Of a stretch of DNA of 64,000 nt, positions 10,512-30,164 are shown one piece after another. A program made the position numbers and the translations under genes. Origin of the DNA: Caenorhabditis remanei (lineage: Eukaryota; Nematoda; Chromadorea; Rhabditida; Rhabditidae); NCBI RefSeq assembly GCF_010183535.1, contig NC_071332.1, forward strand, positions 16,740,001 through 16,804,000, given 5' to 3'. The notes under the pieces were generated by a model. It searched no databases, had not been told where the DNA came from, and worked only from the letters and a program-made list of their open reading frames with translations. How positions within the stretch are numbered: the stretch's first letter is position 1; each line of letters begins with the position of its first letter.

Positions 10512-10517
10512 CAGCAA
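10512..10517. repeat. left target-site duplication CAGCAA
   Basis: CAGCAA directly precedes the left terminal repeat and recurs at 30165-30170 directly after the right one. Six-bp duplications are the rule for Maverick/Polinton integration. The uninterrupted paralogous site reads CTTTACCAGCAATCGC at about 33,992-34,007. Confidence 0.9.
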
Positions 10518-12209
10518 AGAGAAGTGTGGGGGGGGGGTATTTGGGACCATTTTAATTTCGCATGCTGCGCTCTCTCACTCTCTCGTCGTGTGAGACGGTT
10601 TCTCTGCGCGCTCTCTCTCTCTCGTTTGTCTGCGTCTCCTCCTCTTCCATACTCTCTCGCATGGCTCCCTCTCAAGCTCCATGGCTCCCTCGTAAGGATG
10701 ACTCATCGGTACTGTCTCCTCGGGGCTTAATTGAATTTTTTGATTTCACAGGTGAACCGCTGGGAATCCTATATGTGAAGGTGCCAGAATAGCGCCCTAT
10801 GTGTGTCCATAAATGAAAAGTGGATCGCGCGTGTGCCGCATATGTGCGGTCGTCTTTTCTGTGTACTGGCAGCGCGTGCACCCATGTAGCTCCCATATAC
10901 GTTCCATGTATGGTCCATATTTGAGGGTGGCGGCCGGCCGCCGCAACGACACTCCGGAATTACACGTGGGCGTGTTGTTTACCGTAAATCGACGTGACAT
11001 TTTTTTCTATAAGTCCGGGCCCATTTTCTCCGTTTCTCGAAGTTTTTCACCTATTTTCTTCATTCTTTTTGCACAAAACAGATAATGGCAAACTTCAAAA
11101 ATAAAAAGAAATCTATTCAAACTTGCGGAAACTTATTTTTTCAATACAAAAATTGTTATTTTCTCAAGAAACTAGAATTTTAAGTTTTTGTTGAGAAGTT
11201 CGGGTCTGATGTTCCGCTTCACTTCGGTATGATAAGAAATTATATTTTTTCAGATGGATTTAAAGGTAAGAAGGTAAGTATTTGTCATACCGAAGTAAAG
11301 TCAAAATGCCGGACTTCGAATTTCTTCGACGGGTATCATTTTCTTTCAGAGTTCAAAGAAAAGCTTGAGAATCAATGATTGTGTTATAATCACCAAGCTA
11401 ACATATGATTTTTATAGGAAATCGTGTGTGATTTTCAATTTTTTTAAAGTATTGCCATTATCTGTTTAAAAAAGGAAAGAACTTAGAGAAAAATGGAAAA
11501 AATATCCAAGTCCGAGAAATGGGAAGTGAACAAGTTGGAAAAAAGAAAAGTGAAACAACATGATAGCATTATATAACAATCACAACAATGAATTAGGCCT
11601 TTCTAGTGTTTCATACAGAATAATCAACCAAATGTGATTGGTAGAATTAATGCTGATTATGCTATCCATATGCGTTCCATATGCTCCCCACGTTTTCGGC
11701 CGACCGCGCGGTGATCCACGTAGACACATATAGGGTCCAACCCTCATTCTTTTTAGCCGCACATACGCCACCGCGCGGTTCCATATGTGTTCCCCAGCGG
11801 TTCACCTGTGTTTTCCATGTGCCCCCGAACCCCCGACCCGGTGTGTGTTGACTCAGAGCACAACCCCTGTGCTAAGTGTGTAAACTAAACCGGAGGGGTA
11901 GATGTGGTAGACATAGTGAGGGGTCTCGGGCGCGAGAGGGGAACCGGGAGGGAGAGAGACCCAACACGGCAGATTGTGTGTAGGGAAAAAGGAAGGGGGA
12001 GGATGAATTTAAGACTGAGCAATGATTTCTCTGAAATTATTTAATTACTTTTTTCGTTAATTACTTGTTTCGTTAATTACTTATGCTTTTTGAAAAAAAA
12101 ATATTTTCGAAACTACACTATACCTGACAAATCGTTTCGAGACCCAAATTTCAGAGAATACGTTATCTCTGAAAAAATGCGTCGCGCGCGGCGTCCGCGT
12201 AATTGATAC
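10518..12209 (+). repeat. left terminal inverted repeat of the Maverick (split by a nested element)
   Basis: 10518-10746 plus 11813 to about 12209 pair with the reverse complement of the right repeat. It starts AGAGAAGTGTG followed by a G-run of 10, then a CT-rich tract. The inner boundary, near GCGTCCGCGTAATTGATAC, is where the two ends stop matching. The insert 10747-11810 is absent from the right repeat, which gives the empty-site sequence directly. Confidence 0.9.
10747..11810. mobile_element. nested nonautonomous DNA transposon, CACAGGTGA termini
   Basis: 1,064 bp with inverted ends CACAGGTGAACCGCTGGG / CCCAGCGGTTCACCTGTG. Comparison with the right Maverick repeat shows a clean insertion with a 2-bp TT duplication (10745-10746, 11811-11812). 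Subterminal regions repeat variants of GTTCCATATG, possible transposase-binding sites. No transposase ORF. CAC termini with 2-bp duplications suggest the CMC (CACTA/Mirage/Chapaev) group, but this is inference. Same structural type as 42443-43729. Confidence 0.75.
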
Positions 12210-12838
12210 TTTCTTTTTTCCAACGGTTCTATCTTTTTTTTTTAACTTATGCCCTTTTTCAAAATTTCTTCTTATTTCTAAAATTTCACAGACATGTCCC
12301 TGTGTTTACTGAGAAATGACTAATGGAAAATTCTGTGTCTCGCACTCCCTCTACTAAAAGACCTTACTTGACTTTTTCGTCATTTCCTAACGGAATGGAC
12401 AACGTAAAATATTGAATATATTTGATTTTTATTAAATTCTAGTATTTCTTTTTAATTATTCGACTGTCTACTGAATGACAGTCCCTGTACATATTTGATT
12501 TTTATTGAATTAGGTATGTTTAATCAATTTTTAACTAGGAATATAATTTATTTTTCAGTTTTTTAACAAATAATTCCCCTCTCATCCATCATCAACAAAG
12601 AAGTGGACCATTAAGTACGTTTCATTATTTTTGAACTAGGAAAATGTTTTCTTTTTCAGTTTTTTTTTGATGGACGTGTAGAATTGCCAGAGAAACCGGA
12701 GAAAGTGAAAGATGGTGAAGCCGGAGTTCACTCTGAGGGATTGGATCGTGTTCAGAAAAGCAATTTGGTCCATCAAATAATTTTTTATTAATAAATAAAT
12801 AATCACAAATTTCAAAAAAATATATATATAACAAGAAT
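12210..12838. other. Maverick left interior, possible weak exon only
   Basis: AT-rich DNA. On the plus strand, after a TTTTTCAG at about 12,659, a frame encodes a charged stretch (DGRVELPEKPEKVKDGEAG) and stops at about 12,790, with possible introns before it. No upstream exon gives a good frame, so I do not call a gene. Confidence 0.3.
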
Positions 12839-13110
12839 TTAAATTTTCATATGGGAGAAGTCGACGTGAAGGGGCTGGACATTCTCCTAAAAGTATATAA
12901 ATAATGTCTTATATGCGAAAAAAGAAAAGTTATTCTTACCTTGGGGTTGTACCGGGATCCTTTAACGTAGTCTCCCTTCATTGGTGGCCACTGAGTGGAT
13001 TCATCAATGTCCCAGACGGGTTCCTTCTTAATCTCCTCCTAAATAAACTCCCAGTATCAAATTTAGAATTTAAAATTTACCTCAGTAAGCAGCTTTTTGG
13101 GGGCCTCCAT
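12839..13110 (-). CDS. small spliced Maverick gene, 58 aa, unknown function
   Basis: Three exons, 13110-13081, 13038-12940 and 12886-12839, with introns of 42 and 53 bp that are GT/AG and leave a clean frame from ATG to TAA. The protein is acidic-to-basic, with no membrane segment. It contains a WDIDESTQWPPMKGDYVKG segment rich in Trp, Asp and Pro and ends in HVDFSHMKI. I do not recognise it. It follows the protease/70-aa pair on the same strand at the left end of the element. The splice pattern and uninterrupted frame are the evidence that it is real. Confidence 0.6.
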
Positions 13111-13274
13111 TCTTGCGAATCTGTATAGTAGTCGGTATAGTGACAAAGTATGATTGTGGAAAATTGTGCGGGTTATGGAATGCTGGATCGTCGGGCTCTT
13201 AATTGATTTTGATGTTTCAATTACGACGCTAATTGAAAAATGTTTTGATTTGATGAGCATGTATGACCGATGAC

Positions 13275-13487
13275 TCATGCTGACGTCATGTGTAGATTGC
13301 CGAATTCATCTTTATAAATTTTAATTGTTCCCACAAGAGTAAAGTTCTTGAACGATTCTACGAAAAGTGGAAGCATCTGAGGTGTTGTCTTTTGGGGTTC
13401 CGGGAAGGTTTGAGGATACGATGGTTGAGTGACTCCATCTCTTGGAATCGGAGAGGATGGGAGAGACACAGCTTCTTGGTCAGACAT
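13275..13487 (-). CDS. small Maverick ORF, 70 aa, unknown
   Basis: ATG at 13487, ending at 13275. Its first codons overlap the last 8 nt of the protease gene, so the ATG lies just before the protease stop. The N-terminal half is rich in Pro, Ser and Gln (disordered); the C-terminal half (ESFKNFTLVGTIKIYKDEFG) could form a small beta element. No known domain. The tight overlap with the protease supports it as a genuine downstream gene in the same transcription unit. Confidence 0.5.
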   Translation of the reverse strand: MSDQEAVSLPSSPIPRDGVTQPSYPQTFPEPQKTTPQMLPLFVESFKNFTLVGTIKIYKDEFGNLHMTSA

Positions 13488-13998
13488 TATGAATGAATGA
13501 AAGCTTTTCGTACTTCAGAGGCTTATATACTTGACTCTCACAGGTCTTCAAGTGATTCTTGACCCATTTCACCACAAAATCATCGTTTTTAGGCAGATTG
13601 GTTGAGAAGGGGTGTCTTATGCGTTTATTTGAGTGTTTCATAGCTTTTCGAAGCAAAAAGTAAATACAATAATACCCGCAAACATCAGACAAAAGGCCTT
13701 GTATTGGCTTTTGAAATACTTTCTTCCATTTGACGCAATTTCTTGTAAAAAAGTCCAAAAACTCGGTTTGGGGCTCACAACCGCTACTATCCATAAAATA
13801 TCCATAATTTCGGTCATCTACCCAAAGCGCCACCCAATGTTCTCCACCTTCGGTACTTGGAGCTGTATTCCAAATAAATGAGCATGGCCTTCTGGTGATT
13901 ATTGGTTCATGATCACTAGGAAATACTCCCCGAAAACATTTTCTGGTTATATGACATGAACTTAGAAATTTCTCCAATTGTATAGTTGATAAGGACAT
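13480..13998 (-). CDS. adenain-like cysteine protease (Maverick PRO)
   Basis: 172 residues from the ATG at 13998. The C48/adenain-type catalytic layout is visible: His in GGEHWVALW (about residue 54), an acidic residue in the strand after it (YFMDSSG), a Gln in the oxyanion region, and the nucleophile in SDVCGYYCIYFLLR (about residue 108). In adenoviruses and Polintons this enzyme processes capsid precursors during particle maturation, which fits the nearby capsid, penton and PX genes. Length is near the family norm (about 200). No stop or frameshift. It begins 7 nt after the end of the PAZ-like gene and overlaps the 70-aa ORF downstream. Confidence 0.88.
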   Translation of the reverse strand: MSLSTIQLEKFLSSCHITRKCFRGVFPSDHEPIITRRPCSFIWNTAPSTEGGEHWVALWVDDRNYGYFMDSSGCEPQTEFLDFFTRNCVKWKKVFQKPIQGLLSDVCGYYCIYFLLRKAMKHSNKRIRHPFSTNLPKNDDFVVKWVKNHLKTCESQVYKPLKYEKLSFIHNV

Positions 13999-14004
13999 AA
14001 TTTA

Positions 14005-14533
14005 TTAAAACAAGCGAATACGAACATAAACACACTCAATAGGATAAAGACTGCCAGATGGCTCGCGGAATAGTGGGGAATGAGGGTAAGAGAGTGCAAT
14101 ATTATATTTAGTTTCGAAATATTTCTGGACCGAGATGAGCCGGTGTTTCTTTCCTGGAATTCGAGGTACCAAACGGCTTGGGAAGAAATGATTCCGTGGT
14201 TTTGCGTCACTGAAAAAATCATTGAAAATGAAGGTTTTAGTTAAAATTCAAACTCACAGGCTAAACTCAGCTTCTTGGGAAACCTCCATCCCATTACAGG
14301 AATTCCAGAAAAAGAGAACGTTAGATGTCTTCAAGTGACGATTCATATCTCGAATGTGGTGAATGGAAAGATTTTCAATTTTGTTGACCATGAGGAAGTA
14401 CGATGATAAACTAATATCCATACACTGAAAAAGAAAAATAAGAAAAAAATAATTATAAAACACTTACTCCGGCTGGAAGAGGATTGGCAAAATCCGGAGG
14501 AACAATAGGGCGCGTGGTTCCCGGCAACATCAT
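14005..14533 (-). CDS. Argonaute-like L1-PAZ fragment carried by the Maverick (candidate host capture)
   Basis: Three exons, 14533-14468, 14424-14258 and 14209-14005, with 43- and 48-bp GT/AG introns, make a continuous frame of 145 residues from ATG to TAA. Exon 3 contains RLISVQKYFETKYNIALSY followed by PHSPLF and, after a short gap, SLYPIE. This is the pattern with which Argonaute PAZ domains end: S/TVxxYFxxKYxIxLxYPxxPL and then YPxE. Exon 2 has an MDISLSSYF stretch like the L1 linker (xxDVSxxxF) and IRDMNRHLKTSNVLF like the start of nematode WAGO PAZ. There is no MID or PIWI domain and no slicer residues. It sits between the capsid and protease genes on the same strand. Not a core Polinton gene, so a captured host fragment is inferred. 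A decayed or convergent sequence is the alternative. Confidence 0.6.
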
Positions 14534-14938
14534 ACGACCGACTTGTACGACGGAAAAAGTACAAAATGAATTAAGGTTTCGCGTTTATTGTGACATTGCG
14601 GTAGCGATCGACCTCATACATTGCATCGTATTGTGACAAAACCAAAACATTCAGCCCTCCAGCGGGGACTTTCTTCTTAAATCGCAATAAAAGCTGAGTG
14701 CACCCGGCTTGTACCAATTCCCATGAATTTGAAGTATCAATGGGGGCTATGTTGAAAACAAAGAAAGTGTGCCCACTTCGGAACATTTTGTATGTAATAC
14801 AGGGACACGTCTTGTTCGATACACATCCGAGTTCATCATATAGTCGAGCGAGTGCTTGAGCATAACTCTTATTCTCAAAGTCACATTGAATTGGCTGTGG
14901 TGGGTACGCGGTTCCTCCAGCGTTTAGTTGAATTTCGG

Positions 14939-16265
14939 ACTAGCGTCCCCCGCCTCCCGGCGGGCTCCGCTAGAAGGGGCTTCGCCCCTTGCGCAGTGCT
15001 CAGCAAGCTTTGAATCAGATCGCTACGACCATTTTGAAGCAAGTTATGAGCATTTTTCTATTTTATATGACCCAGGCAAGCAGAATTTCATTACCTTTCG
15101 AATGGTAGTAAGATGAAGGTTCTACGACAATTTTGAGCCGAGTTAGAAAAAAAAACAAAAAATTAGACCAGCCAGAAACTCGAACCAAAAACCTCCCCAT
15201 CGCCGCACCACACCACTGCCACTGAGCCACACACTCGCTGGTGTGTAGCCACCCAGATGGCGTTTAAGTGGTGGGAAGACGCACGCTTGCATCGACTCGA
15301 CCAGTCGTCTCCTTTCAGAAATGTTCTCGAACGTTTGAGACCCTATAACTCGAGTCAAAATCAATATTTTTTAAATCTGTTTTTTTCTCCCCCTAGATAA
15401 TTTTCTTGGCTAACACATATCAAAAATCCATATTAGCTGGACAGATGACACTCCAGAGCTAAGCGATATAAGCGAAAAACCCGTTTTCTCCACAGCTCAG
15501 TTCCCACTGGACCGTTTTGGCTGAAACTTGATATTCCATTAGATAATTCCGATTTGACCAACATATCAAAAAATCAGAACAACTTTAGTACAAAAATTTT
15601 TCAGGACAGCAAAAATAGTCCGGTGGAGGCCGACAACAGCAAGGCGTTTTTTTCTGTTTTTCTGCAGTCCACCGGCCGTACCGGACGGGGGGTGCTTCAA
15701 ATTAAAAATTTGACGTAAAAAAGTGATTTCTCGTCTAATTTTACGTCTAGTTACCAAGTTATATCAAAAACTATCGGGTAGAACTCGAGATAATCGAGGT
15801 GAAGCAAAAAAACCGAAAAATGAAAAAACAGAAAATTTTCTCAAAATAAAAAGTAGCCTTCATTCAATCGATTATAACTCGTTTAGAAGTATGGAATCTC
15901 AAAAAGGGGGTTCTTAATAAAAAAATTGGCCTAAAATTCCCTATCGATTAAAAAAATAAAATCAAATTTTCATCGAGAATCGGAAAAGTTATGAATGCTT
16001 CAAAAGAGGGGACAAAATTGAGACATTTTTTTTCGTTTTTTTCGCCGAATTTTGAGCATAACTCTGCTCTTTTTTACTCCAGAAATATGGAATTTGGGAA
16101 AAAGCAAGAAAAAGTTATTAGCTAAAAAGCTATTAAAAAATTATTAAAAAATATAAAGTTTGAACAAAGTTGCACGAGGCAAAGCAAAAAAACTTTTTTC
16201 GACACATTTTTAAGCCCCGCCCACTTTTTTTCCCCCCGCCATACCTACTACCCATTGGGAAAGAA
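14939..16265. mobile_element. unclassified 1.3-kb insertion within the capsid gene
   Basis: Boundaries are approximate, set by where capsid coding stops on each side. The low-coordinate end has two GC-rich hairpins (stems CCCGCC/GGCGGG and AAGGGGC/GCCCCTT) next to CTAG. On the minus strand the order hairpin-then-CTAG-then-T resembles a Helitron 3' end, but the other end lacks a clear A|TC start, so this is only a suggestion. The interior holds repeated phrases like TATAACTCG and a tRNA-like box pair. No ORF of note. Base composition (G/C blocks at the edges, A/T inside) differs from the flanks. Confidence 0.6.
15165..15235 (-). repeat. tRNA-like (SINE-type) A-box/B-box pair
   Basis: On the minus strand TGGCTCAGTGG (15229-15219) fits the pol III A box and GGTTCGAGTTTC (15186-15175) fits the B box. 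The roughly 32-nt interval is as in a tRNA gene. There is no full cloverleaf, so this is a tRNA-derived repeat rather than a tRNA gene. Lies within the insertion in the capsid gene. Confidence 0.45.
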
Positions 16266-17137
16266 GGTGGTGGAAACGTCAAAATGTGGAAACTCGAGAG
16301 AATCTTTGGTGACATCAGTATTGGGATTGAGAAGTCCAACAATTATACGCCTTGGGACAATGTCATGATATATAGTGCTGAACGGTAGTTCAAAGCGTCC
16401 TTCAGGGACTCCAATAATTTTTACTTTCGAAAGAGTGAATGGATATTGAGCTGGTGCAGTTCGCAATCGATTTTCCAAAGCTAAAGTAGCTGATGGTACA
16501 ACATCAATCGCCCTCATATGTAGTTTCAAATCGGAAATTTCCAATTCAGCCTTTGTGTCTTTAGAACTTTGCAGACAGAAAGCGTCACTATTTCGGTAGA
16601 GTGTAAGTTGAATATCAACATGTGGGATCAAAAGTCTATCCGTTTGGAAACATTCCAAAAGTAGTGGAGCATACAGATCCAATTCTGATTTTGTAGTCAA
16701 GACACGTGAGTCTTTACTATCCGGGTCCCGCCATCCCGCAGTAGAAAGAAATCCTTTTTTGGTTTCAGTATTTTCGCCAAGTAGAGTTTGAATATAGCTT
16801 TTGTATGCATAATAGTCCGAGTCATAGACCGGAACATTGTTAAAGGTTACTTTAACTTGGTCAAAGAAGGTGGCACCAATAAAGTTTGTATATTGAATAG
16901 GGGGAACGTCAGCTCCTTCTTCAGCATTTTTGAGTTTCAGTTTAAAACTTATATAAGTTTTGTTGAGTTGAAAGAAGTGTGCACTATCATAAACATTGAA
17001 AACATACGGTCCTTTTGAATTTATAGCGTTTGTTGTGGTATAAGTCATCCATGTTCCTTTTGTAAATGCAACTTGGCTTGGTGGAGTGTCAAAAAGACAA
17101 ATATTGGATGGGGCGCTTGGAGCACTTTTTGATTCGA

Positions 17138-17641
17138 TTAGCTTTGCCATTTTCCAAAGATGTCGCGTTTCTGGGATGTTGATTTCGGCAAAGACCTTTT
17201 CTTCTTGGACGTCTTCCGCTTTTTAGATGGAACCTTTCTCAGCTTTCTTGTTTTTCTGACAGGTTTCCGCTTTGGACGAACCGTTTTCCTCCTCTTTCTT
17301 CTTCCACCAGACTGATCGAGTTTGCTGACAGCACGATTGATGAGAAAATTATAAGAATTGGTAGCGTTTTTTGACAAGGACTGCTTAAAAGAATCACCAG
17401 CCGCTACGTCGTTTGCAATACGAAGTGACGAATCCATGACTTCACGACCAACTGAAACACCCATGCGTTTTAGCAAGGGGACAGCGGAAATGAAGAGTTT
17501 TCCGAGTAATTGCGAGAAAGGGCCGTTTCCCCGTTGATAGAGACTTCCGGCACGAAATCCACCAGAACCGGTCTGACTTGGGTCATTTTCGAAAAAATGG
17601 ACCCAATCAATAGAAGCATCAGGATCAAAGTAAATATGCAT
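17138..17641 (-). CDS. PX-like basic virion protein of the Maverick
   Basis: 167 residues from ATG at 17641. The N-terminal half has glycine-rich and hydrophobic stretches (GSGGFRAGSLYQRGNGPF, then LLGKLFISAVPLLKRMG). The C-terminal half is extremely basic, with runs of Arg and Lys (GGRRKRRKTVRPKRKPVRK and following). This two-part design matches the Polinton PX proteins and resembles adenoviral core/cement precursors. A role in DNA binding within the particle is inferred. It lies between penton and major capsid genes, with its stop inside the first codons of the capsid ORF. Confidence 0.7.
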   Translation of the reverse strand: MHIYFDPDASIDWVHFFENDPSQTGSGGFRAGSLYQRGNGPFSQLLGKLFISAVPLLKRMGVSVGREVMDSSLRIANDVAAGDSFKQSLSKNATNSYNFLINRAVSKLDQSGGRRKRRKTVRPKRKPVRKTRKLRKVPSKKRKTSKKKRSLPKSTSQKRDIFGKWQS

Positions 17642-17680
17642 AGTGTGAGACGCGGATTTCTTGAGTAGTTGAATACGTAA

Positions 17681-18454
17681 TCAACCATCAAATGGATATT
17701 TGATCGGACGGAAATGAAGTACGATGACAATCTTTCCAGAGTTGAATGGAATGAAATGATCTCTATCGTTCTTAATTTGAATGCCAATCCGAGAGACTTC
17801 CTTCACTCTCAGTGGTACATATAGAGGGTTTGAGAATGTTTGTTCAACATTTCCCTCATTTCCCGTACTTATGCTGATAACCTTCAAAAGAGGTGTTTGA
17901 ATATGACTAACCGTCTGGGGTTCTACCAAGCCTTCAGAGTAGATGTACATAAGATCTGCACCCGAAAACATGGTATATTGCCCTTTTGCCGGAAATTGTG
18001 TGTTTTCCTTGTTTAGACCGAGAAAATAGCTGAGACGGTCCGAAAGTTCAACACGTGTAATATTCTTCGTATGTTGAATCGTTACCCGTTTGAATAGAGG
18101 ATCGTATGAAAACAGGTCAATTCCTTTTCCTGTGGCGTTTGTTGCCGTTTTCACCGTTTTCGCAAGAGTATGGTTCAAAATCTCGATTAGTTGACTTGGT
18201 GAAGAAAATGAGCAGTTTGGTACTTTACACTTGTATTCCGTTGTTCCGAAAGAAACATAAAACTCATTCTCATATTTGCCTTGTGATTCAGGGTTATGGG
18301 AAATCAAATCATGAGAAGTTGGATAAATGATGGAGGAAAGGGCTACTTCATACTCACGGCGGAATACCAAAGAAGAAGGAAGTGGAGTTTGAAAATTAGA
18401 AATTGTCGATCCGGCTTGAGCATTAGAAACAAGAGTCACATAGAAATCACTCAT
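17681..18454 (-). CDS. Maverick minor capsid (penton-like) protein
   Basis: I start at the ATG at 18454 (MSDFYVTL), not at the start of the longer open frame, because the upstream 51 residues are the shadow of an overlapping small membrane ORF. The 257-residue product has the typical Polinton penton opening (FYVTLVSNAQAGSTISNFQT, then REYEVALSSIIYP), followed by beta-rich sequence with LSYFLGLN in the middle and a VIVLHFRPIKYP end. Single-jelly-roll penton proteins form the capsid vertices. It is uninterrupted and placed between the integrase side and PX, as is usual. Confidence 0.8.
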   Translation of the reverse strand: MSDFYVTLVSNAQAGSTISNFQTPLPSSLVFRREYEVALSSIIYPTSHDLISHNPESQGKYENEFYVSFGTTEYKCKVPNCSFSSPSQLIEILNHTLAKTVKTATNATGKGIDLFSYDPLFKRVTIQHTKNITRVELSDRLSYFLGLNKENTQFPAKGQYTMFSGADLMYIYSEGLVEPQTVSHIQTPLLKVISISTGNEGNVEQTFSNPLYVPLRVKEVSRIGIQIKNDRDHFIPFNSGKIVIVLHFRPIKYPFDG

Positions 18455-18659
18455 TTTCTCTAATTTTAGGATTCGGTAGCAAATATCCAATACACGAACC
18501 AAGAATAATAAGCCACTGTTGCTGATGCGGATGATCAAGAGTACAAACTTTATATAGGGCCACAAAACATACAACATAAATGATAAAAACTTGTGAAAGA
18601 AATACAATCAAAGCCCTAGAACAGATGGTTTGACCACAAACCCACTTTGGACTATCCAT
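18447..18659 (-). CDS. small membrane protein of the Maverick, 70 aa
   Basis: ATG at 18659. Two hydrophobic segments (ALIVFLSQVFIIYVVCFVAL and WLIILGSCIGYLL) separated by a short polar loop with a His/Gln cluster, then a charged tail. The stop overlaps the penton start by 8 nt, the same kind of coupling seen at the protease/70-aa junction. Function unknown; a virion-egress or envelope role would be speculation. Coding potential rests on the overlap and the paired membrane segments. Confidence 0.45.
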   Translation of the reverse strand: MDSPKWVCGQTICSRALIVFLSQVFIIYVVCFVALYKVCTLDHPHQQQWLIILGSCIGYLLPNPKIRENE

Positions 18660-18733
18660 AATAACAAATGAAACTTATTTCTCAAAAAAATAACAAATGA
18701 AAATAATTTCTCAATAAAAATAACAAATAAAAC

Positions 18734-19738
18734 TTATTTCTCAAAATGATCTGTTTTATACAAAACCATCTCTTCTGCGTACCAAATACCATCAATCTCT
18801 TCTTCGTTCGAATCTGATAGAATATACACTGGAATGTCATAATTTAGGATTTTCGTCACTTTGAAGACTTCACTGGTCCATTTGGCTCTTGTACCCTTTG
18901 CGAAAGGAGAATTTTCAATCAAGACTCTGACCGTATCACCGACTTTGTAAACAGGGTTTTGTGCCTTCGACCCGCCATAGAGTCTCTGCCAGATTTTATA
19001 TGCATTATCCCAAGTGACGTTTTCAGGAGATGTTCCGATAGAGTCCATATATGTACTGTTTAGTCCTTCCAAGATTTTCGGTAGTACACTGACCCAGTCA
19101 TAACTTTGTGAAACGGTGAACCACTTTTCCAACTTGTTCTTGATTCTCATGATAACATTCTCGGCATAACAGGCTTTGACATTTGTGTTCTTCGGGTTAT
19201 AAAACGTAATACCCATTGATCGAACAAAGTTTTGAAACTCTTTTCCCATAAATTCGGTACCTGAAAACAAAATATAAGTACAGATTTTAAAAAACTGAAC
19301 CATACCTTTATCAGTATAAAGACTTGATGGAATTCTTCTTTGCGCAGACATCAAAATATCTTTATAGGCCTCAGTGACGGTTTCACACTTTTTATTTTTC
19401 AATGGTCGTGCAAACGCATAGCGACTAAACACATCAACCACTACCAAAATGTAGCAGTAACCTTTGTTCTTTGATTTGAGTGTTGGGAGCATTGCAAGAT
19501 CTGCCATATGATGGCTATTAGGCCCACGGGCGACCCAAGGATTATGCTTGATTGCTTTGACTTTGTGAAAATGTCGGGTGTATGCGTTGTTTGAATGAAG
19601 ATAGTTGAGAACCTCTTTTCTTCGAATGTGAGGATTTATTTTACGGGCTTGAGCAAGTAAAGTTGATGGACCACGCAATCCCGACTTTGGATCATGGTAC
19701 AATCTTTCCAAAAGGTTTTCAGTTTCCTGGCCCTCCAT
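18734..19738 (-). CDS. Maverick retroviral-like integrase
   Basis: The ATG at 19738 opens a frame to 18734 with one 45-bp GT/AG intron at 19305-19261. The intron is a multiple of three without stops, so the unspliced frame also reads through. The DDE catalytic triad of the rve fold is visible: Asp in HMADLAML, Asp in YTDKG just before the intron, and Glu in CYAENVIMRIKNKLEKW. A C-terminal part with YKVGDTVRVLIENSPF and KWTSEVFKVTKI is the SH3/chromodomain-like region typical of Polinton integrases. It would insert the element and make the 6-bp duplications seen here. The ATG overlaps the preceding gene by 20 nt. Confidence 0.92.
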   Translation of the reverse strand: MEGQETENLLERLYHDPKSGLRGPSTLLAQARKINPHIRRKEVLNYLHSNNAYTRHFHKVKAIKHNPWVARGPNSHHMADLAMLPTLKSKNKGYCYILVVVDVFSRYAFARPLKNKKCETVTEAYKDILMSAQRRIPSSLYTDKGMVQFFKICTYILFSGTEFMGKEFQNFVRSMGITFYNPKNTNVKACYAENVIMRIKNKLEKWFTVSQSYDWVSVLPKILEGLNSTYMDSIGTSPENVTWDNAYKIWQRLYGGSKAQNPVYKVGDTVRVLIENSPFAKGTRAKWTSEVFKVTKILNYDIPVYILSDSNEEEIDGIWYAEEMVLYKTDHFEK

Positions 19739-20414
19739 TACTCCAACGTTTTACAGCAAAAGTCCGGGGCGTGAAGCGGGTTTGGTACTTTCTTTTCGGG
19801 TTAAGAATATATTCTTCAGGAAAATTGGTCTCGCTCAAGTATTGTGACAATCCTCGTAACGCTACCGAAGGTTTTCTAATTGGGTTTTCGTTGGAAAAAT
19901 CTTTGATAATTTTCGTCACGTTGTACATGGGAATCAATCGGTTTTTCAAGTAAAATTCGCCAGTCCGTTTATCAACTAGAAAATGACTTGGGTGACTGTT
20001 GAAGTGATTCCAGAGTTTGGTTTTACTTTCTTTTATCTTCTCTAAAGGGGTAACTGAAGGAGGAATGACGGGTAGAGGGGTGACAGAACGACTAGAGTTT
20101 GTCCTGATTGAGTAGTCACTGGCGGCATCATCAAAATTACTGACAGCATCCATGAAAACATCGTCTTCTAGACTTTTATCAACTTTGGCCTGTATTTCCG
20201 TTTCTTTCGGCTTTTCTGATTCTTTTACCGCATTTGCCTCATCATTCCGTTTTTTCACCAATGATGTTATTTGTTGTTGTAAAAGTGAGAGTTTGACATC
20301 GTTTTCCATTGGTGTTTCCAATATTTTGTTGACTGACTCATCCGCAGGGTTTCGATTTTTGACCAAATCTTCATGTTCTTCCACAGATAGTAGTATATAT
20401 TTATTGTAGGACAT
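19719..20414 (-). CDS. conserved-type Maverick protein, unknown (coiled-coil, 231 aa)
   Basis: ATG at 20414. Begins MSYNKYILLSVEEHEDLV, a start pattern I associate with a recurrent Polinton-side protein. A helical, glutamine/lysine-rich coiled-coil region follows (about 40-75), then a Ser/Pro linker (TPLPVIPPSVTPLEKI). A C-terminal domain has GEFYLKNRLIPMYNVTKII and ends in a basic RFTPRTFAVKRW tail. No catalytic motif. Overlaps its upstream neighbour by 14 nt and the integrase by 20 nt, so it belongs to the same transcription unit. Confidence 0.6.
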   Translation of the reverse strand: MSYNKYILLSVEEHEDLVKNRNPADESVNKILETPMENDVKLSLLQQQITSLVKKRNDEANAVKESEKPKETEIQAKVDKSLEDDVFMDAVSNFDDAASDYSIRTNSSRSVTPLPVIPPSVTPLEKIKESKTKLWNHFNSHPSHFLVDKRTGEFYLKNRLIPMYNVTKIIKDFSNENPIRKPSVALRGLSQYLSETNFPEEYILNPKRKYQTRFTPRTFAVKRWSNGGPGN

Positions 20415-20760
20415 GTTCCAGAATAGTAGAAGCAGCAGAAATCAAGACTGGCAAAAGGACGGCAATTGGGGTACCACCAGTTTGAATTAGAAACTGACGA
20501 GTTTCGTCAATATTTCGAAGTGTTGAAAGACGTCTCAAGTCGGCAGAATATCGTTGAAGACGACGGACGTTCTTTTGGGATATTTGAACATTTCCTTTCA
20601 AAACGTTATAAACCAGCTCTACCAAACAAATTAGCTTTTGGTCAGGAATTGCGTTGATTAGAGCAATACGGGCATTTTTGTCAGAAGTTGCCGAAAGAGC
20701 CATAATTTCATTGAAAGTCTTCAAATCCCACTGGGGATAGTTATTTCGGGACGTAGACAT
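20401..20760 (-). CDS. small conserved Maverick protein, unknown (119 aa)
   Basis: I choose the ATG at 20760 (MSTSRNNYPQW), which overlaps the ATPase gene by 20 nt, rather than 20790. Mostly helical; contains LRRLSTLRNIDETRQFLIQTGG followed by a hydrophobic segment (AVLLPVLISAASTIL) that could span or insert into a membrane. The helix plus Q-GG plus hydrophobic tail pattern recurs in Polintons next to the ATPase. Role unknown. Confidence 0.55.
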   Translation of the reverse strand: MSTSRNNYPQWDLKTFNEIMALSATSDKNARIALINAIPDQKLICLVELVYNVLKGNVQISQKNVRRLQRYSADLRRLSTLRNIDETRQFLIQTGGTPIAVLLPVLISAASTILEHVLQ

Positions 20761-21370
20761 GAGTAATATTTCCAGGAAGTATATTATCACGATACCGAAT
20801 TTTGTCAGGACAACTTTTGTGAAGATCGATCAACAAGTAAGTATAGGGTTGACTGGTCGCGTCAGAATAAATGGAGAGAAAAGTGTTACAGCCTCCTGGC
20901 ATAAGCTGGGAACCCAAACAACGGACACTTGATTTATCCGAGTTATTCTTGAATAGAATGATATAACTTGCTTGGAGGCGGAGATTTCTTATAACTTTTG
21001 AATAGAAAATGGTGTGAAGGAGAAACATTACGGTCATATCGTAGTGATGAGCCAAAACTGACACTAGACGCTCCATTCCAGAGTTTTGGTCGATTTTCGT
21101 CATCAAGTCATCAATTACCACCATAGCCCGTTCCGTCTTATATTTCTTCAATTCTTCGAGATTTGGTAGTCCTTCGCGTAAAATGATATCTTTCCGGTTT
21201 TTCATAGAATCGGGTACACTTTCGAACGTGTCATAGTACCAAAAACATATCTTACTGTCCACATCAAAAATTGTATTCCTTTGATCGACTATTTTCCGTG
21301 CCAAAGTACTTTTTCCCTGGCCACTAGGACCAACAACAAGAATAGTAGACTGCCAAGCAAGCTTAACCAT
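20741..21370 (-). CDS. Maverick FtsK/HerA-type genome-packaging ATPase
   Basis: 209 residues from ATG at 21370. Walker A is GPSGQGKST (about residues 14-22), Walker B is MVVIDDLM (about 83-90), and an MFLLHTIF/QxSYIILFKN region corresponds to the sensor strands of A32-like packaging ATPases. In the family it pumps viral DNA into capsids. Length matches compact Polinton ATPases. No interruptions. It is the first of four overlapping genes leading to the integrase. Confidence 0.9.
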   Translation of the reverse strand: MVKLAWQSTILVVGPSGQGKSTLARKIVDQRNTIFDVDSKICFWYYDTFESVPDSMKNRKDIILREGLPNLEELKKYKTERAMVVIDDLMTKIDQNSGMERLVSVLAHHYDMTVMFLLHTIFYSKVIRNLRLQASYIILFKNNSDKSSVRCLGSQLMPGGCNTFLSIYSDATSQPYTYLLIDLHKSCPDKIRYRDNILPGNITHVYVPK

Positions 21371-21811
21371 GATGAATGAATAATTTTTTGAACATTTTTA
21401 TTTCTTTTTTATTCCATTCGATGCGAAAAAATTTGTATTATTTTTTTGATTACTGGAGAATCTCATGAATCTTCCATTTTATCGCATAATTTCCGATATT
21501 AACACATTTCCGACAATATTTCACTAAAATATGTGATGGCCGTCCCGTAAATCGACACGGCCTATCTTTTCTGGCTCCCAGGCCCCGGCCCCGCGCAAGT
21601 GCGTAGTACACCACGGGCATTGCACACTTTTCCCATCTCTCAACTATTTCATCATCGCCCCTCTTCACCCGTCTGTCTATGTGTCTGCTTGCTTCCCTCA
21701 CTACTTTGACGCAGACTTGAAAAAAAATATTTATTAAGAAAAAAAATATATACAAAAAGAAAAATTCTTTACCCGATGTCGATACCCGAGTGGCGGTGTA
21801 AACCCGAAAAA
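21371..21811. other. Maverick gap between ATPase and polymerase, with short direct repeats
   Basis: Contains GTAAATCGACACGGCC at about 21,546, a motif I recall as common in Caenorhabditis repeats. It also has a 28-bp imperfect direct repeat, CGATACCCGAGTGGCGGTGT at about 21,780 and CGATACCCGAATGGCAGTGT at about 21,822; the second copy overlaps the end of the polymerase gene. An open frame at 21450-21755 has no recognisable domain and I leave it out. Confidence 0.45.
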
Positions 21812-24800
21812 TTATTTATGGCGATACCCGAATGGCAGTGTTGACCCGTCCGAAAGAACCCGTCTTTTGTTGAAGGTGTACCTCATTTGTTTCTCAATAT
21901 CTTGGGCGTAGACATTGTGCTCCCGATCCCTCCGCATGGTGAACTGGGGCACCTTCTGAACCGTCCTCGGTGTGATTTCCTCCAAGACCTCCTCAACCAT
22001 CGTCTTCATGTTGTCGAACGTGACGATCTTGTCCGCGGCCGACGTCATTGTGAAGCCTTTGGCCTTAATGGAGATCTGAAAAAAATTTAAAAGTTTTATG
22101 AATACATTTTTTTTTAGTTGTTTACCTTTTCTTCACCGGTTTCCATCACCTGTTTGTAACTGTAGGTTTTGGGACCTAAAGTTACAAATTCGGTCATGGT
22201 GCCACTCAACTCGCTGGTCAGGGATCCCAAATATTTGCCCAGATCTTCCTTGAGAGGGTCTTCTTCTCCATCTGGGACCGTGTAGATGAGGGAGTCTGTG
22301 TCTGAAAAAATATATTTGTGAATGAATTTTCAAAGTTAAAAATTTACCGGTATAGACCAGATTGTCTGCCCCCACTTTCTCCATCAGCTCATACAAGCGG
22401 AGCCTGGCATGAGATGTCGTCAGCGCAGCGATGTGCATGGCACTCGTCCGGAGACTCTGGAGGCATTCCGCTCTTTTTTGGTGTTTGACGACGAGGGTAT
22501 CATTGACGGCTCTCACGTCTTGAATCTCGACGGTTTTATCGTAAAGAATACGATAAAACTTGGCCGGATCAATAATGATTGACGTGTTCGTCTTATCCAC
22601 CCTCTGGGCCGTTTTTCCCCACTAAAATAAAACTTTCAGATTTTTAAAAATTTAATAAAAAACTTACGAGTGAGTTGAGCAAGAGTTTGGAGACGGCTCG
22701 CTTTCCGGGGTTCTTCTCCATCTTATCGGCATCCAACTCGATAGCCTCCATGGTCCGGTACCCTTCAATGAAAGCCTCCTTTTCTTCCGGGGTGACGACT
22801 GTCTCTGGCCATCCACTGGCGTGCTGTAATAATATTTTTTCATATTTGTTTTTAATGAAAAACTTACAATTTTCTCCACCATCATCGTATTGATATAAGA
22901 GGTGAAGAGTCCTCCCTCGCTCTGCTCGTTGTTTTCAAGCCAAAGTGGGTATTCGATGGCCTATAAATTTAATTTTTCTTAAAAATAAATGTAATCAACT
23001 TACATGGAAAACTTCCAAAATTTTGTAGCCCAACTTGAGGGCTTTGCCGAGCTCGAAGGTGGTGTACACACCAGTGAATGACCTTTCATCATCTGTGTGG
23101 TGGCAATCTTCTTGATTCTCCTCTCTCATACAAACTGAGGAAATATATAATTTTGGGAAACTTGAAGAAAATACTTACTTTTGCAGAGTCCAAAGACCAA
23201 CTTTCCAGACGTTTTGTCTGCAATAAGAGGGAGTCGGAGATCATCAGGTGCCAACACCCGACACAGCATGAATCCTAAGAATGGGATGTCTTCTGGAGCA
23301 GTCATTGGGACTTTGAGGTCCTTTGCTGGAACATCTCTTGGCGGTCCGACGGGGAAACAGCAGTACTTCATCACGGAGGGGTATAAGCTGAAGAAAAAAA
23401 ATACGATTTTATGATAAAGATTGTGGAAAATATACCTGATGACGTCATTGAAGTTGATAACTTTCCCTTTGTCATCGACAATCAGCTTAAAAACCTCAGT
23501 CCGCCCACCAACCAAGGCTCTCTCCATTTGGAGGATCCCCTAAAATATTATTTGTATTTTTTTTTTAGTTTGAAAAACTTACGGAAACTTCATGATTAGC
23601 GAAAAAGTCCGCCATTTCCGGGTTATTTCGGAGCTCTGTGTCGACATCACACTCCCAAACAACCTCCACAGGATAACCACTTTCCTTCAGTTCGGCCAGT
23701 CGCATACGATCCCTCTCTCGAACCTCCTCGCCAGTCATGTCGCCAATCATTGAGTCATCGGCAAACGAACACGAATGGGCATGCCAGTAACACCCCTAAA
23801 CAAAAAATTAATTATGTTGAAAACAACTGTCAGACTCACATTAAACTCAATTATTTTTCCTTCCGGATACCTGTCGCATTTATCGATGAATCCATCGACC
23901 CGGAACCTGCCGATCTGAAATAAAATTTATCATTTTAGGAAAAAAACCACAATCTTCTCACCATCTTTTCACCATATGTCGACGAAATGTCGACTTGGAC
24001 TCCGTCCCTATGTCCAATCCATGCCAAATACTTTTGGCTTTTGATTGAAGAATTATAGGAAGCGGATGGCTTGACATCAAGAACGATTGGGCATCCGTTT
24101 CGAAGGTGATTCCGGCGAAATGTGGTCATCGCGGCAGAAGCGATAGTGACCGACTCCTGTAAGAAACGCAGACAGTTAGAGAAATGATCGTCGTGAGGGA
24201 AAGTGTGGGGGCACCATATGGTCGGGTGAGAGAGTGGAGAAATAGACGGGGAAAGAACCAACCTCTAACAGACAGACATCTGTCAACTCTTCGAAGGCCT
24301 TCAGGAAAGTAGTCATTGATGTGGCGAGGATATACACATCATTATAACAGTACTTGATCAACTCTTCACAAAAGTTGAACTTCTTGTTGGACGACTTGTA
24401 TTCCTCCCTTTCCTCAGCAAGTACCTTCTCCATACGTTTTCTCTCCGATGCCGACTTGTTATCCAACGTGAAGTACTCGTTTGCCGGGAGATCTCCCTCA
24501 TAATCATAGTTTTCTTCTTTTATAAACTTGATTGGGAAATCTCTGGAAAGGTTTTTTTCTATATTTTTCAAGATAATAAATTACTTACCCCTTCAGAGAA
24601 TCCACCTCGAAAGTTTTTCCCATTGTGGCTAGACTCATCGGGAGGTACTTCATGGAATCGACCATCCGGACACCATTGTGCTTCAGATAAACGAGCTTCG
24701 TGCCGTCCAGGCATACTTCCGGTGCCGATTTGTTGGAAGCGATGAGACTCTGGAGGATGAATTGTCCGTCGTATCTGAAAGAAATTTAACAAAATTAGAA

Positions 24801-27112
24801 AGTTTTTCATTTTTCACTTGCCCAGACATGTTGTGGGCGACAAGCGTTGAGCCCTTGTTTTCCTCAGAGATCACGAATTGTCCGATCTCGGACTTACAGT
24901 CCAGATCTCTGTTGGCGTAATAGATGCTCTCGATTATTTTTATTCGGCCATTTGGAGAACACCGGGCACATGTGTCGGAGTCATCCTTGATTTCAGGCTT
25001 CGTGCCATCATACTTGACCGTCTTTGGAATCGTCGAGGAGCATTCTGGGCAACATCTGATCCCGGTGAAGACGATCGGGATCTGTTCTCCTTCCTCCACA
25101 GCCTTACTCTGAAATTTTTTATATTTTTTCTGACCAATATAAGAGTACACAAACCTCGATATCGTAGTAGAAGTACGTCCGAGTGAGCCTCTTCTCATTC
25201 TTCTTGCTGACGGTCATCGTACAGTGGTGGAATTCCGCCCTCATACACTGACATCGGTGGCAGAAATTTTCTCCACATTCGTGAGGCCTGGCATTCTTGT
25301 TGCGGAAGTAGGGCGTCTCACATTTTTTGCAGAATTTTGTGTGATCGCACCTACTTTTTCCACCTCGTGGCCCTAAAAACAAATAGTTAGTCTTGCCCTT
25401 TATGATTATTTATTTACCTTTCTCGAGATGGTTTTGGTAGCATGCCTCCGAGGGGAAGTGGACATGACACTTCTGGCATTCTACGGGTTTATCATCCTTC
25501 GTTTTAGGACAGTTCTGCTTGCCACATTTTCTGTGGATCAACTTGCAGTTGTAGTGTGAGGCCACGTCCCTGAATTTTGCGTCACACTTGCCGCAATAAT
25601 ACCAGGTATCGAGGAGGGCGCACACACTTCTGACACCACGGAAATGACCATTTGAGAGATAGAGAACCAGCAGTTTTTTCTCTCCAGTGTAGTCACCTTT
25701 GAAGAATGGCAGAGTGGAATTTTGTTCGAATACCAGGATTTTGTACTTCTTGAAGACTGTTTCTTGGAAGGCTTTGATATCCAGATAACCAAAGTTTTCA
25801 GACTTTGTAACTCCCGCCTTCTAAAATAAAATAAATAGTTTCCCAATGTTTCAACGGACAAATATTACCTTTTTGATGTCCTCAACAGTTTCAAAAAGCC
25901 ACTTGTAGCGGTTGGGGTTGCTATCGGACTTCTTCAAACTAGCTTTGTAGTTGTAGCGAGCTGTGGCTGTTTTCTTCTCTTGCCAAATGGAGTAGTACAG
26001 TGCTTGGAGGAGTGCATGAGGGAGGCAGTTTTTGGAGACTATAACAAAGTTTACTTTTTCAACAATTAATTTTAGAATTTATCAAAACCTTTATTCTGCA
26101 AAACATTTGTTGCTCCTTTTCGTCCAAAACTTGATACGGCCTCATCTCTATCTTCTTTTTCTATTGTGTCCTCCTCCTCCTCTACTTCTTCTTCTTCTTC
26201 TTCTTCTACCTCGTCCCCTCCGTTTTCCTCCACTTCTCCGAGAACTCTATCATCAATTTCCCTTCTCTCATACATTTCCATATCATAGTCTCCTTCTTCA
26301 TCATCCAGGAAATCGTCGAATTCTCCCTCCTTTTCGACTTCTTCATCATCTCCATCATCAGAGCACCCCGCTTCGTCATCGAGGAAAGGGCAACCTCCTC
26401 TCCTCTTTTTCGACTTTACAGAGCGGGTCTCTTCCCTTTCTGCCCTAGCCTCCTCTCTAGTTTCCTCCTCCGCCCTTTTTTGTTTCTCGAAAGCAATTAG
26501 TTCGAGAAGTTTTTCAGTGTCAAACTTTCTTTTACGTCCTCGCTTTGATTTCGGAGAAACTTCAGGGGGAACGTCTCCAGAACCCACTGCCGGTGTGACA
26601 TAAGTCAACATCACCGACAACTCGGGGACGTCCAATTCCAATGGAGAGCGACTCGACTGACTCATTCTCTCCATGTTGAAGACAATGTCATCTATCGTCA
26701 CTCTTCCTATTGGTTTTAGAGGGAGGCCAATATGTTCTACTAAACTATCAGAAAAAATAGTCACTCCGACATGAAGGTCGGTCGTGGAAGCTCTAGAGGG
26801 GGCATGTTTCTTCATCAGATCTATCAGAGCCTGGGCAAACATTTCGGGGCCTTGGGGGTGGAGAATAATGTTTCGGGGGACCCGCAATTTTATTGTGACA
26901 TGAGTCACAACATTTCGGAATGGTCCTTCCCCTCTACGGACTACCTTCGTGAGCTCTTTCAGGCTAGCTCCGCCCACTTGGACCTAATAAATTAAAAACT
27001 GTTTAAACCCCACAAATAATTTTATTTCACTCACGAGTCCACTTCGCAACTCCTCCATTTCAGTCTCCTCCACCTGCTCCAGGACTGCATTGAGTACTTG
27101 TTGAACGGCCAT
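21812..27112 (-). CDS. protein-primed DNA polymerase B of the Maverick, many exons
   Basis: Starts at the ATG at 27112 and ends with GYRHK at 21812; introns are short GT/AG. An N-terminal region (about 27.1-26.1 kb) ends in a long Glu/Asp-rich tract. A zinc-binding Cys/His region follows at 25.6-25.2 kb (CKKCETPYFRNK, CHRCQCMRAEFHHC). The 3'-5' exonuclease motifs are FYYDIE (about 25.15 kb), VAHNMSGQ (about 24.84 kb) and YCYNDVYIL (about 24.34 kb). Polymerase motif A (DVIS-LYPSV) is split by an intron near 23,392-23,437, motif B (KLLLNS) lies near 22,680, and motif C (DTDSLIY) follows the intron near 22,303. All catalytic acidic residues are present. In Polintons it replicates the element using a terminal protein primer. 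No break found, but I did not resolve every exon edge. Confidence 0.88.
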
Positions 27113-27138
27113 TTTGAATTACGACGAGAATACTGAAA

Positions 27139-27399
27139 ATGATACAATCAGCTCCAAAGAAGGTTATGAACGAGGACAATACTGGCTATTTTGTCCCACA
27201 AGAAAGTTTCAATCAAAACGGAATGGTGAGTATAAATTATTTACTAAAAAATTAAAGAAAAATTCAGATAAGCTCAACAATCGGAAACGAAAGTATGGCT
27301 TTCACACAGCCGCCGCCGTCAAAAACAACGAAAAGAGTCGAAAGTTTTATTTTCAACTTTAATAAAGGGTCGTCACCGACCATCAACATACAAAAATGA
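27139..27399 (+). CDS. small spliced Maverick gene, 72 aa, ends in an F-x-KGSxPxINI motif
   Basis: Two exons, 27139-27225 and 27268-27399, with a 42-bp GT/AG intron; ATG to TGA is in frame. It starts only 26 bp from the polymerase ATG on the other strand, so the two genes share a very short divergent promoter. The protein is polar, with a QPPPSK linker and the C-terminal string FIFNFNKGSSPTINIQK. A homologous tail occurs in a relic at about 28,600-28,470 on the minus strand, so the tail is conserved between two copies and is probably the functional part. No known domain. Confidence 0.6.
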
Positions 27400-27698
27400 A
27401 AGAATGGTGGAGCCGGGAGGGAGAGAGAGGGGGCGAATTTTTGTGTAATGTTTTGATTTCCCTTTCGTATCATCTCGTGACAGGTTTATCATTATAAATC
27501 CATTAAGTGCAACAATTCCTGAAATTAAACCCCGCCCCCTTTCAGCTGCTATCATTCATTTCATTATTTTTTCTTCTTACTGTGCGGTCGGTTTCTCCAC
27601 CGCTCTCCCTTTCCCGACACTTTCTGTTTCGTTTACTTTTTGTTTCTTTCTTCTTCTCCCAAAAAATAAATTTGTGTACTTTCATTTCTGTAGAATAA

Positions 27699-28271
27699 AT
27701 GTCTCATGTCTACTCCTCCAACGAAAACGCCAAAGCCGTTAAGGATCTTTCAAAATCCTACAAGAATAAATCAGCCAAGAGCGAAGGTCCCATTTCCGAC
27801 GAAATCAAGAAAATCGTCCACCCATCGCGGACTTCATTGAAAAGAAAGAGAGAGGAAAAAGGAGAAGAGGACGGGACCGTCAGAAAAATGGTAATTTATT
27901 TACTTTGTCATATAAAATAGTATTTTTTATATTTCAGGAATGGCTCAAGATGAAGGCTAAGGACGCCGTGATCCCAACCGAGACAAATGCTGTGGTGAAG
28001 CCGGAGTATCTCTTCAGGGAACCAGGAGCGATCGTTTTCAACATCTGTTACCCCTGCAAAAAATTCAACTCAGAACGCCAGGTGGAAGTCGTCGAGCCTG
28101 GAATGGTACAAATCCGTAAGTTTTATAAATTTTATAATTTTTCCGTGTATTTATTTTTTAATTTCAGCATTGGCTTTGTGCAGTGTCTGTCGAAACCATC
28201 TGAATCTCCAGCGCCAAATCAAGTTCTTCCAGTTCGAAATTCCAACCGTCAAGAAGGAGTATAATCTGTAA
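27699..28271 (+). CDS. putative zinc-binding small protein of the Maverick, 157 aa
   Basis: Three exons, 27699-27890, 27938-28115 and 28168-28271, GT/AG introns of 47 and 52 bp, phases agree. The N-terminal third is highly charged (Lys, Glu, Ser) and probably disordered, with LKRKREEK as a candidate nuclear-localisation signal. The C-terminal half has two CxxC knuckles, ICYPCKKF and LCSVCRNH, about 35 residues apart, which could form one zinc ribbon. No family recognised. On the plus strand near the right repeat, opposite to the structural genes, suggesting separate (early?) expression. Confidence 0.6.
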
Positions 28272-28399
28272 TTCTTTTGAAGGAAAATACCCCTCTCTCT
28301 TTTCCACACTTTCCCGTTTTCCCCCTCCTTTTCTGCCCTCATGTTTTCCCGCATAGTCCCCTTTCGTCCCCAGAAAGACAAGTTTATTAATGACCAATT

Positions 28400-29260
28400 T
28401 ATTCTTCAAAGTAACTAAAAGGAAGAGTAAAACTATCAGGCAATAAAATCCATTTCCAAACGTTCAGTCCTTTTTGTATATGTTTATCACAGGAGCCGAA
28501 CCTTTTGCGAAATGAAAGGTGTACGCGTCCTTTTTCTTTTCGGCTTTCTGTGTTTGATTGTGTGGGATGGGTGTTTCGTTGAATAGGGCCATTGCCTGAA
28601 ATTTTCAAGTTTTCCATAAAAATTGACCGATAAATCTAGTATATAAACTCACCATACTGACGGAATCCACAAATTTTACGCCCTTGTGTTTCAAAAACAC
28701 TAGTTTTGTTCCATCCAGAGCGGTTTGAGGTTTGGAGACCAGGACAATCGGTGTCCCGTTTTTCAAATGGTCTCTTCTGAAGACCTGCATGGCAGCAGAT
28801 GCGGCAGTGACGGCCTCCTGCAAGAAATTGCGAGTTTGTAGGATTAAAAAATGTTTTTCCTACCTCCAACAAGCATACATCAACCATCTCCTCAAACGAC
28901 TTCTCAAAGTTTGTCATGGCCGATGCGAGAATGAAGACATCGTTATAACAATTTCTTCCACAAAATTGAACTTTTTGTGTGTTACCCGCTCCGATGCCAA
29001 AAACTCTTCCAATTCCTTTCGCTTTACTGGTGATTTGTTGTCAAGATCGTAATATTCGTCGTCGGGAATATTTGAGGTGCTTCCTTGTTGCTGGCAATCA
29101 GTTTTTCGATAATAAACTGAGCATCATATCTGAAAAGTGATTTTACACACATAGTTTGGAGAGAAAATAATTACCTCGATGCATTATGTGCCACAGCCAG
29201 AGCCCCCATGCTCTTCTGATAACAAGTAGATTTCGGTATTGATTGATGTAGAATAGAAGG
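28400..29260 (-). pseudogene. rearranged relic of a second polymerase B plus small-gene tail
   Basis: Minus-strand fragments match the nearby polymerase but are diverged and out of order: YDAQFIIEKLIASNK (about 29,110), then DNKSPVKRKELEEFLAS, CYNDVFILASAMTNF (exonuclease III, about 28,940), EAVTAASAAMQVFRRDHLKNG (about 28,800) and finally DGTKLVFLKHKGVKFVDS (about 28,700), which in the intact gene lies upstream of exonuclease III. An exon at about 28,600-28,470 then carries an FHFAKGSAPVINIYKKD tail like that of the 27139-27399 gene. Frames are broken by a deletion at about 29,070. Evidence of an older or different Maverick incorporated near the right end. Confidence 0.7.
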
Positions 29261-29539
29261 AAATTAATAAATTACTTTTAGGACTCAGAAAAAATCAGAA
29301 TTAAATAGAGATAGGACACCGCTGGCGTCCAAAAATAATATAGAATGAAGGAAAAGATGCAATGAAAAACTATTTATACTGACCAAACGTCTGGTTTTTC
29401 AAAGACAAAGAAAAATGAATCATCTCAAAGTACACCAAAAAGCTCACGTAGGAGTGGGCACCGTGCCAACTTTCAAACATTCACAATAAACGAGGAAGAT
29501 TTATATTGAAAAAATCAGAAAACTGATATATCTATTTAT
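29261..29539. other. Maverick right interior, nothing recognised
   Basis: AT-rich sequence between the polymerase relic and the right terminal repeat. No ORF, splice signals or repeats that I can support. Confidence 0.4.
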
Positions 29540-30164
29540 ATCAATGATGCGGACGCCGCGCGCGACTCATCCGCGACGCATTTTTTCAGAGATACCGTAT
29601 TCTCTGAAATTTGGGTCTCGAAACGATTTGTCAGATATAGTGTAGTTTCAAAAATTTTTTTTTTTTCAAAAAGCATAAGTAATTAACGAAAAAAGTAATT
29701 AAATAATTTCAGAGAAATCATTGCTCAGTCTTAAATTCATCCTCCCCCTTCCTTTTTCCCTACACACAATCTGCCGTGTTGGGTCTCTCTCCCTCCCGGT
29801 TCCCCTCTCGCGCCCGAGACCCCTCACTATGTCTACCACATCTACCCCTCCGGTTTAGTTTACACACTTAGCACAGGGGTTGTGCTCTGAGTCAACACAC
29901 ACCGGGTCGGGGGTTCGGGGGCACATGGAAAAATCAAAAAATTCAATTAGGCCCCAAGGAGACAGTACCGATGAGTCATCCTTACGAGGGAGCCATGGAG
30001 CTTGAGAGGGAGCCATGCGAGAGAGTATGGAAGAGGAGGAGACGCAGACAAACGAGAGAGAGAGAGCGCGCAGAGAAACCGTCTCACACGACGAGAGAGT
30101 GAGAGAGCGCAGCATGCGAAATTAAAATGGTCCCAAATACCCCCCCCCCCCCCCACACTTCTCT
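29540..30164 (-). repeat. right terminal inverted repeat of the Maverick
   Basis: About 625 bp, reverse-complementary to 10518-10746 plus 11813-12209, ending in a C-run of 15 and CACACTTCTCT. The C-run is longer than the G-run of 10 at the left end, as expected for a slippage-prone tract. It lacks the nested element found in the left repeat. Confidence 0.9.

Follow-up and report, generated by a model that had tools for sequence, protein, structure and literature searches.

A predicted PAZ-only gene in Maverick elements of Caenorhabditis remanei as a candidate counter-silencing factor

The PAZ gene and its element

The 64,000-nucleotide (nt) stretch of the Caenorhabditis remanei genome analysed here (contig NC_071332.1, positions 16,740,001 to 16,804,000; hereafter the window) contains a Maverick element, within which a small three-exon gene lies on the minus strand, with a presumed capsid gene on one side and a protease gene on the other. 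Its product, 144 amino acids (aa) long and encoded by a frame that is open in the window copy, is predicted to consist of a PAZ domain alone. A first-pass annotation made from the sequence had described a three-exon frame with GT/AG introns, and such a frame is present on the minus strand; the ATG used in that annotation lies three bases upstream of the start methionine (MLPG) used by the annotated relatives P0003 and P0007, MLPG being internal in two others, P0005 and P0006.

14468..14530, minus strand: exon 1, 21 codons with an MLPG start, placed from the sequence and annotated relatives
14425..14467, minus strand: intron 1, 43 nt, GTAAGT..TTTCAG, phase 0, read from the sequence
14258..14424, minus strand: exon 2, covering the first half of the PAZ fold as predicted, placed from genome matches
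14210..14257, minus strand: intron 2, 48 nt, GTGAGT..TTTCAG, phase 2, place and phase kept among copies
14005..14209, minus strand: exon 3, PAZ signature and stop codon, Pfam PF02170 match, 43 copies at E<1e-3

Exon 3 contains the pattern on which the PAZ assignment was originally based, ISVxxYFxxKYNIxLSYPxSPL..YPIE, and alone matches the Pfam PAZ profile (PF02170.28) at E 3.3e-5, with 24.3 bits against a curated cut-off of 28.8. Annotated relatives comprise GCK72_010616 (P0003) and GCK72_013060 (P0007) in C. remanei, P0004 and P0005 in C. nigoni, and P0006 in C. brenneri, three Caenorhabditis species in all; on the same profile P0003 scores 27.1 bits and the other four score lower, and P0003 is listed under PF02170.29 in the protein database. 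Structure prediction, carried out on a relative that shares 48% identity with the window copy over exon 3 and 38% over exon 2, yielded the PAZ fold, an OB-like barrel with an alpha-beta insertion, whose closest solved counterparts are small-RNA anchors; no viral structure model was similar to it (best E 0.79). In the second half, Phe, Tyr-Phe and Lys-Tyr, pocket-side aromatics included, are invariant across all rows compared. No PIWI domain accompanies it: the gene stops before the next one, and a comparison of PAZ and PIWI match places found no PF02171 match at the Maverick copies. The proposal of a PAZ without PIWI inside a Maverick is borne out by these profile and structure tests; the L1 linker implied by the original 'L1-PAZ' label is not supported.

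The element shows the hallmarks of a Maverick, namely terminal inverted repeats, a 6-bp target duplication (CAGCAA, at 10512-10517 and 30165-30170), a family B polymerase, an rve integrase and an adenovirus-like protease. In its inverted repeats, 11811-12066 is matched to 29677-29932 and 10517-10746 to 29931-30160; the left repeat is in two pieces, at about 10518-10746 and 11811-12186, with ~1.1 kb between them.

10518..30164, no strand: whole Maverick, delimited by long terminal inverted repeats and flanking CAGCAA
13480..14001, minus strand: adenovirus-like cysteine protease gene, next downstream of the PAZ gene, Pfam Peptidase_C5 E 1.4e-5
14571..14939, minus strand: major capsid gene, presumed C-terminal piece, an open frame labelled via C. 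nigoni P0005
16248..17222, minus strand: major capsid gene, presumed main piece, an open frame with genome matches, ~1.3 kb from 14571-14939
18734..19750, minus strand: retroviral-type integrase, Pfam rve E 1.1e-8
20741..21397, minus strand: P-loop ATPase, presumably for packaging, with 15 weak Pfam hits of P-loop type (best 1.9e-5)
24176..24580, minus strand: piece of a family B DNA polymerase, Pfam DNA_pol_B_2 E 7.4e-7

The placement of the gene between capsid and protease genes, as first described, is firm on the protease side (Pfam Peptidase_C5), while the frame on the other side is one that we take to be the capsid gene from its position; a search for a double jelly-roll major capsid found nothing convincing among profiles or PDB sequences. 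The distance from this frame to exon 3 is 2094 in the window copy, compared with 757-1080 in the 40 other copies that have both, and the window frame is therefore taken to be interrupted by ~1.3 kb. The C. nigoni model P0005 joins a capsid-like stretch, the start of a piece like 14571-14939 and the PAZ gene in one fused protein, so the neighbourhood seems to be the same in that species.

Elsewhere in the window, seven unit copies of a tandem gene family, 80-92% identical to the reference copy, occupy 30526-44339 and 60672-60984, and presumably encode chemoreceptor-like membrane proteins. The sequence from 42971 onward is repeated from 59616 onward at 100% identity (300-nt reference) with a spacing of 16645, frames 44038-46268 and 60683-62913 reading identically and a run of unread bases lying near 59500; this repeat is a recent duplication or an assembly artefact.

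Copies, selection and a second Maverick clade

Across the genome, a threshold of E<=10 gives 59 matches to exon 3, of which 43 have E<1e-3, and 43 to exon 2, of which 41 fall below 1e-3. Among the 43 stronger exon-3 copies, whose subfamilies span 94-100% identity down to 39%, 42 are free of stops and the remaining one carries a TGA. The protease gene lies downstream in 42, at a gap of 7-72 bp in 40 of these, the presumed capsid gene lies upstream in 41, and both neighbours are found in 40; the incomplete neighbourhoods are those of C151:137, at a contig start, C6:21082264, which is split, and C16:6608, which has no protease match. The intron between exons 2 and 3 is bounded by GT..AG, is 42-55 nt long and keeps its position and phase in 37 of 39 copies (C7, C26, C176 and C6:21082264 were left out of the 43); in the other two, L066 and L067, the start of exon 3 has no match. 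Conversely, the PAZ gene is found near 42 of the 43 protease places of this group, clade 1. Rather than captured cargo of one element, as had been supposed, it is a near-constant gene of Maverick clade 1 in the C. remanei genome.

The ratio of nonsynonymous to synonymous substitution rates (dN/dS), calculated for non-independent pairs among four clade-A copies, is 0.02-0.12 in exon 3 (67 codons; six of six pairs, p 1.7e-8 to 3.6e-4), and 0.09-0.16 in the protease in four pairs (p 0.056 for one). Between subfamilies, the values are 0.20 (exon 3) and 0.28 (exon 2) for C and F, 0.10 (exon 3) for D and E, and, for E and G, 0.26 in exon 3, from six changes only, and 0 in exon 2; synonymous sites are saturated in many wider pairs. 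The conservation that the first-pass annotation proposed to check is thus present, with dN/dS far below 1, many copies and annotated relatives in other species. Judged from such sequence comparisons, with many stop-free copies whose neighbours keep in step, the exon 3 match is more than chance. The same observations bear on the idea that a host Argonaute exon was once inserted and that the gene is its functionless remnant. Breakage does affect a few copies (C6:21082264, C35, C117), as happens in any transposon family, yet the open frames, kept splice sites, purifying selection and presence in several species refute this reading, which is almost certainly wrong.

A second Maverick clade, in which the presumed capsid protein is only 23-30% identical, was found at 23 places in the capsid search. 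Weak exon-3 matches lie near five of them (L069-L073), all of which have two tandem PAZ-like genes, gene 2 being cut short in L070; in L069, gene 1 has exons at 1520-1687 and 1732-1920 and gene 2 at 1995-2156 and 2203-2562, both on the strand opposite to the capsid gene. Two more places, C2:16284998 and C4:1941904, have a more divergent PAZ-like frame within ~2.3 kb (E 0.0012). Gene 2 corresponds to CRE_08607, CRE_16095 and CRE_19497 in public records, and aligns with host PAZ rows at hhalign E 5.7e-8, a fair kinship; it has no Pfam match and its fold model is weak, and it is treated here as a likely PAZ. Very divergent two-exon PAZ-like frames occur at L085-L088, of which L085 is near a second-clade capsid gene.

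The arrangement of these genes is relevant to the proposal that the product serves in the virion or its assembly and has merely retained an ancient PAZ-type fold. The tight squeeze of the clade-1 gene between presumed capsid and protease genes would suit such a role, which we nevertheless consider improbable in view of the opposite orientation in L069 and the lack of any similar viral structure model.

Origin and related mobile genes

When the Maverick exon-3 profile was searched, the best of 20 rows came from a dispersed single-exon PAZ-like family (27.9 bits), followed by host Argonautes at no more than 25.1 bits. In a tree of 24 rows, host Argonaute PAZ and mobile PAZ domains stand apart with weak support (57/90) and long branches, and therefore neither an origin from WAGO Argonautes nor a single capture is established; the tree gives kinship with host wago genes in particular no clear backing. 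A host-type gene with PAZ and PIWI lies ~6 kb from one Maverick PAZ copy (G000:C6:3266326-3268006), and a similar gene is found on contig C40.

The single-exon family (~124 aa) lies outside clade-1 Mavericks and accounts for eight of 30 matches, which are 76-100% identical, one with a stop; its Pfam PAZ matches (E 0.0062-0.025) are below cut-off. Representatives on C3, C1 and C4 are the following.

L079, 2694-3062, plus strand: single-exon PAZ-like gene
L081, 2393-2761, plus strand: single-exon PAZ-like gene
L082, 2184-2537, minus strand: single-exon PAZ-like gene
L083, 2115-2489, plus strand: single-exon PAZ-like gene

In L082 the gene stands head to head with a frame that matches a retroviral aspartyl protease and, weakly, a viral fusion-glycoprotein; the corresponding frame in L083 has no Pfam match and is one that we take to be gag-like. 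L082 and L083 have another 1.1 kb in common at 94%. The family may be a further case of a PAZ gene with a mobile carrier.

Possible function and known systems

The reading we favour, to which we give about an even chance, is that this near-constant clade gene, through its predicted lone PAZ fold, shields the element from silencing by gripping host small RNAs at their 3' ends. The protein would hold these ends and block the use or amplification of the RNAs; small RNAs or their duplex precursors would be sequestered or shielded rather than used as guides, because a lone PAZ can anchor RNA 3' ends but has neither a guide 5' pocket nor a slicer. Since the gene is packed among presumed virion genes, the protein may be made late or travel in particles, and, if expressed together with them, it would act at the peak of particles and element DNA.

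Several observations weigh against small-RNA binding. The PAZ score is below the cut-off of Pfam version 28, and exon 2, which encodes the remaining half of the fold, has no Pfam match alone; human PAZ residues of this first half could not be mapped onto the Maverick protein, and RNA contacts there may have been lost. Exon 2 (55 codons) also evolves faster (dN/dS 0.16-0.42, significant in four of six pairs), and this half may have changed the pocket or turned it to protein contacts. Together with the predicted fold, such divergence would agree with a protein-level mimic that vies with host Argonautes for partner proteins or for loading, with no need of RNA binding; the pocket-side aromatics, superfluous for a mimic, are invariant, and this alternative appears unlikely. 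Some copies are degraded, exons 2 and 3 being ~12 kb apart in C6:21082264 and only the end of exon 3 being kept in C35 and C117. In the second clade, a PAZ-like match lies near only seven of the 23 capsid places at the thresholds used, and five ~5 kb stretches chosen for having no exon-3 match (L074-L078) show neither tandem gene; since five of the ten stretches were chosen by a match and five by its absence, they are not a random sample. Elements with no nearby match may do without the gene or keep it elsewhere. Lastly, a structural role would be equally compatible with a location next to presumed virion genes.

Protein priming on linear DNA is the expected mode of Maverick replication, and the same predicted fold could hold DNA 3' ends. 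The protein might accordingly bind the linear DNA of the element itself at its 3' ends and protect or organise the termini during replication or packaging, a proposal in line with the adjoining presumed virion genes and with the crystallisation of human PAZ with deoxynucleotide overhangs (title of 1si2). However, the closest solved folds anchor small RNA, and a gene serving the element's own ends should be constant, in contrast to its patchy detection in the second clade, which weak sensitivity may explain; we give this proposal a small share of probability.

To our knowledge, PAZ genes are not known from any virus or virus-like transposon, nor is any PAZ-only silencing suppressor known. Some viral suppressors of RNA silencing are built from host-like RNA interference (RNAi) domains, such as RNase III and the double-stranded RNA-binding domain (dsRBD), and the role proposed for the Maverick gene, blunting small-RNA silencing with a domain of the host machinery, would be of the same kind. 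In C. elegans, the PAZ-domain gene F55C9.3 is described in PMC3213143 as being among the targets of ERI-6/7-dependent small interfering RNAs (siRNAs), genes that are recently acquired and duplicated and for which the authors suggest a possible viral source; the likeness to the Maverick gene is one of description only, that of a PAZ-domain gene among possibly virus-derived genes. A broader scenario, which we offer tentatively and with rather more doubt than belief, is that nematode Mavericks routinely encode PAZ-only proteins that soak up small RNAs by their 3' ends, proteins derived from the host guide-anchoring domain, present in at least two element clades, duplicated in one, and engaged in an arms race with worm Argonautes, siRNA-silenced PAZ-type genes such as F55C9.3 being relics or targets of the same conflict. 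The conserved gene offers a testable counter-silencing candidate and a natural minimal candidate binder of small-RNA 3' ends, and bears on how Mavericks persist in hosts with so many Argonautes.

Nematode Mavericks have been described with fusogen and cargo genes and as carrying genes between worm species (PMC10680173); the word PAZ is absent from the text of that paper and from PMC11071308, and a literature search found no PAZ gene in Maverick/Polinton elements, which is not proof, as the Jeong 2023 nematode polinton and Widen papers were outside its scope. The element in the window resembles known Caenorhabditis Maverick/Polinton elements in its long terminal repeats, 6-bp duplication, polymerase, integrase, C5 protease and ATPase. 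With the PAZ of Argonaute/PIWI proteins (PF02170), its PAZ gene shares the predicted fold, the YF..KYN..YP-P..P-E segment and the invariant second-half aromatics, whereas the Maverick domain stands alone in 144 aa, without PIWI, is encoded by a mobile element and has a divergent first half.
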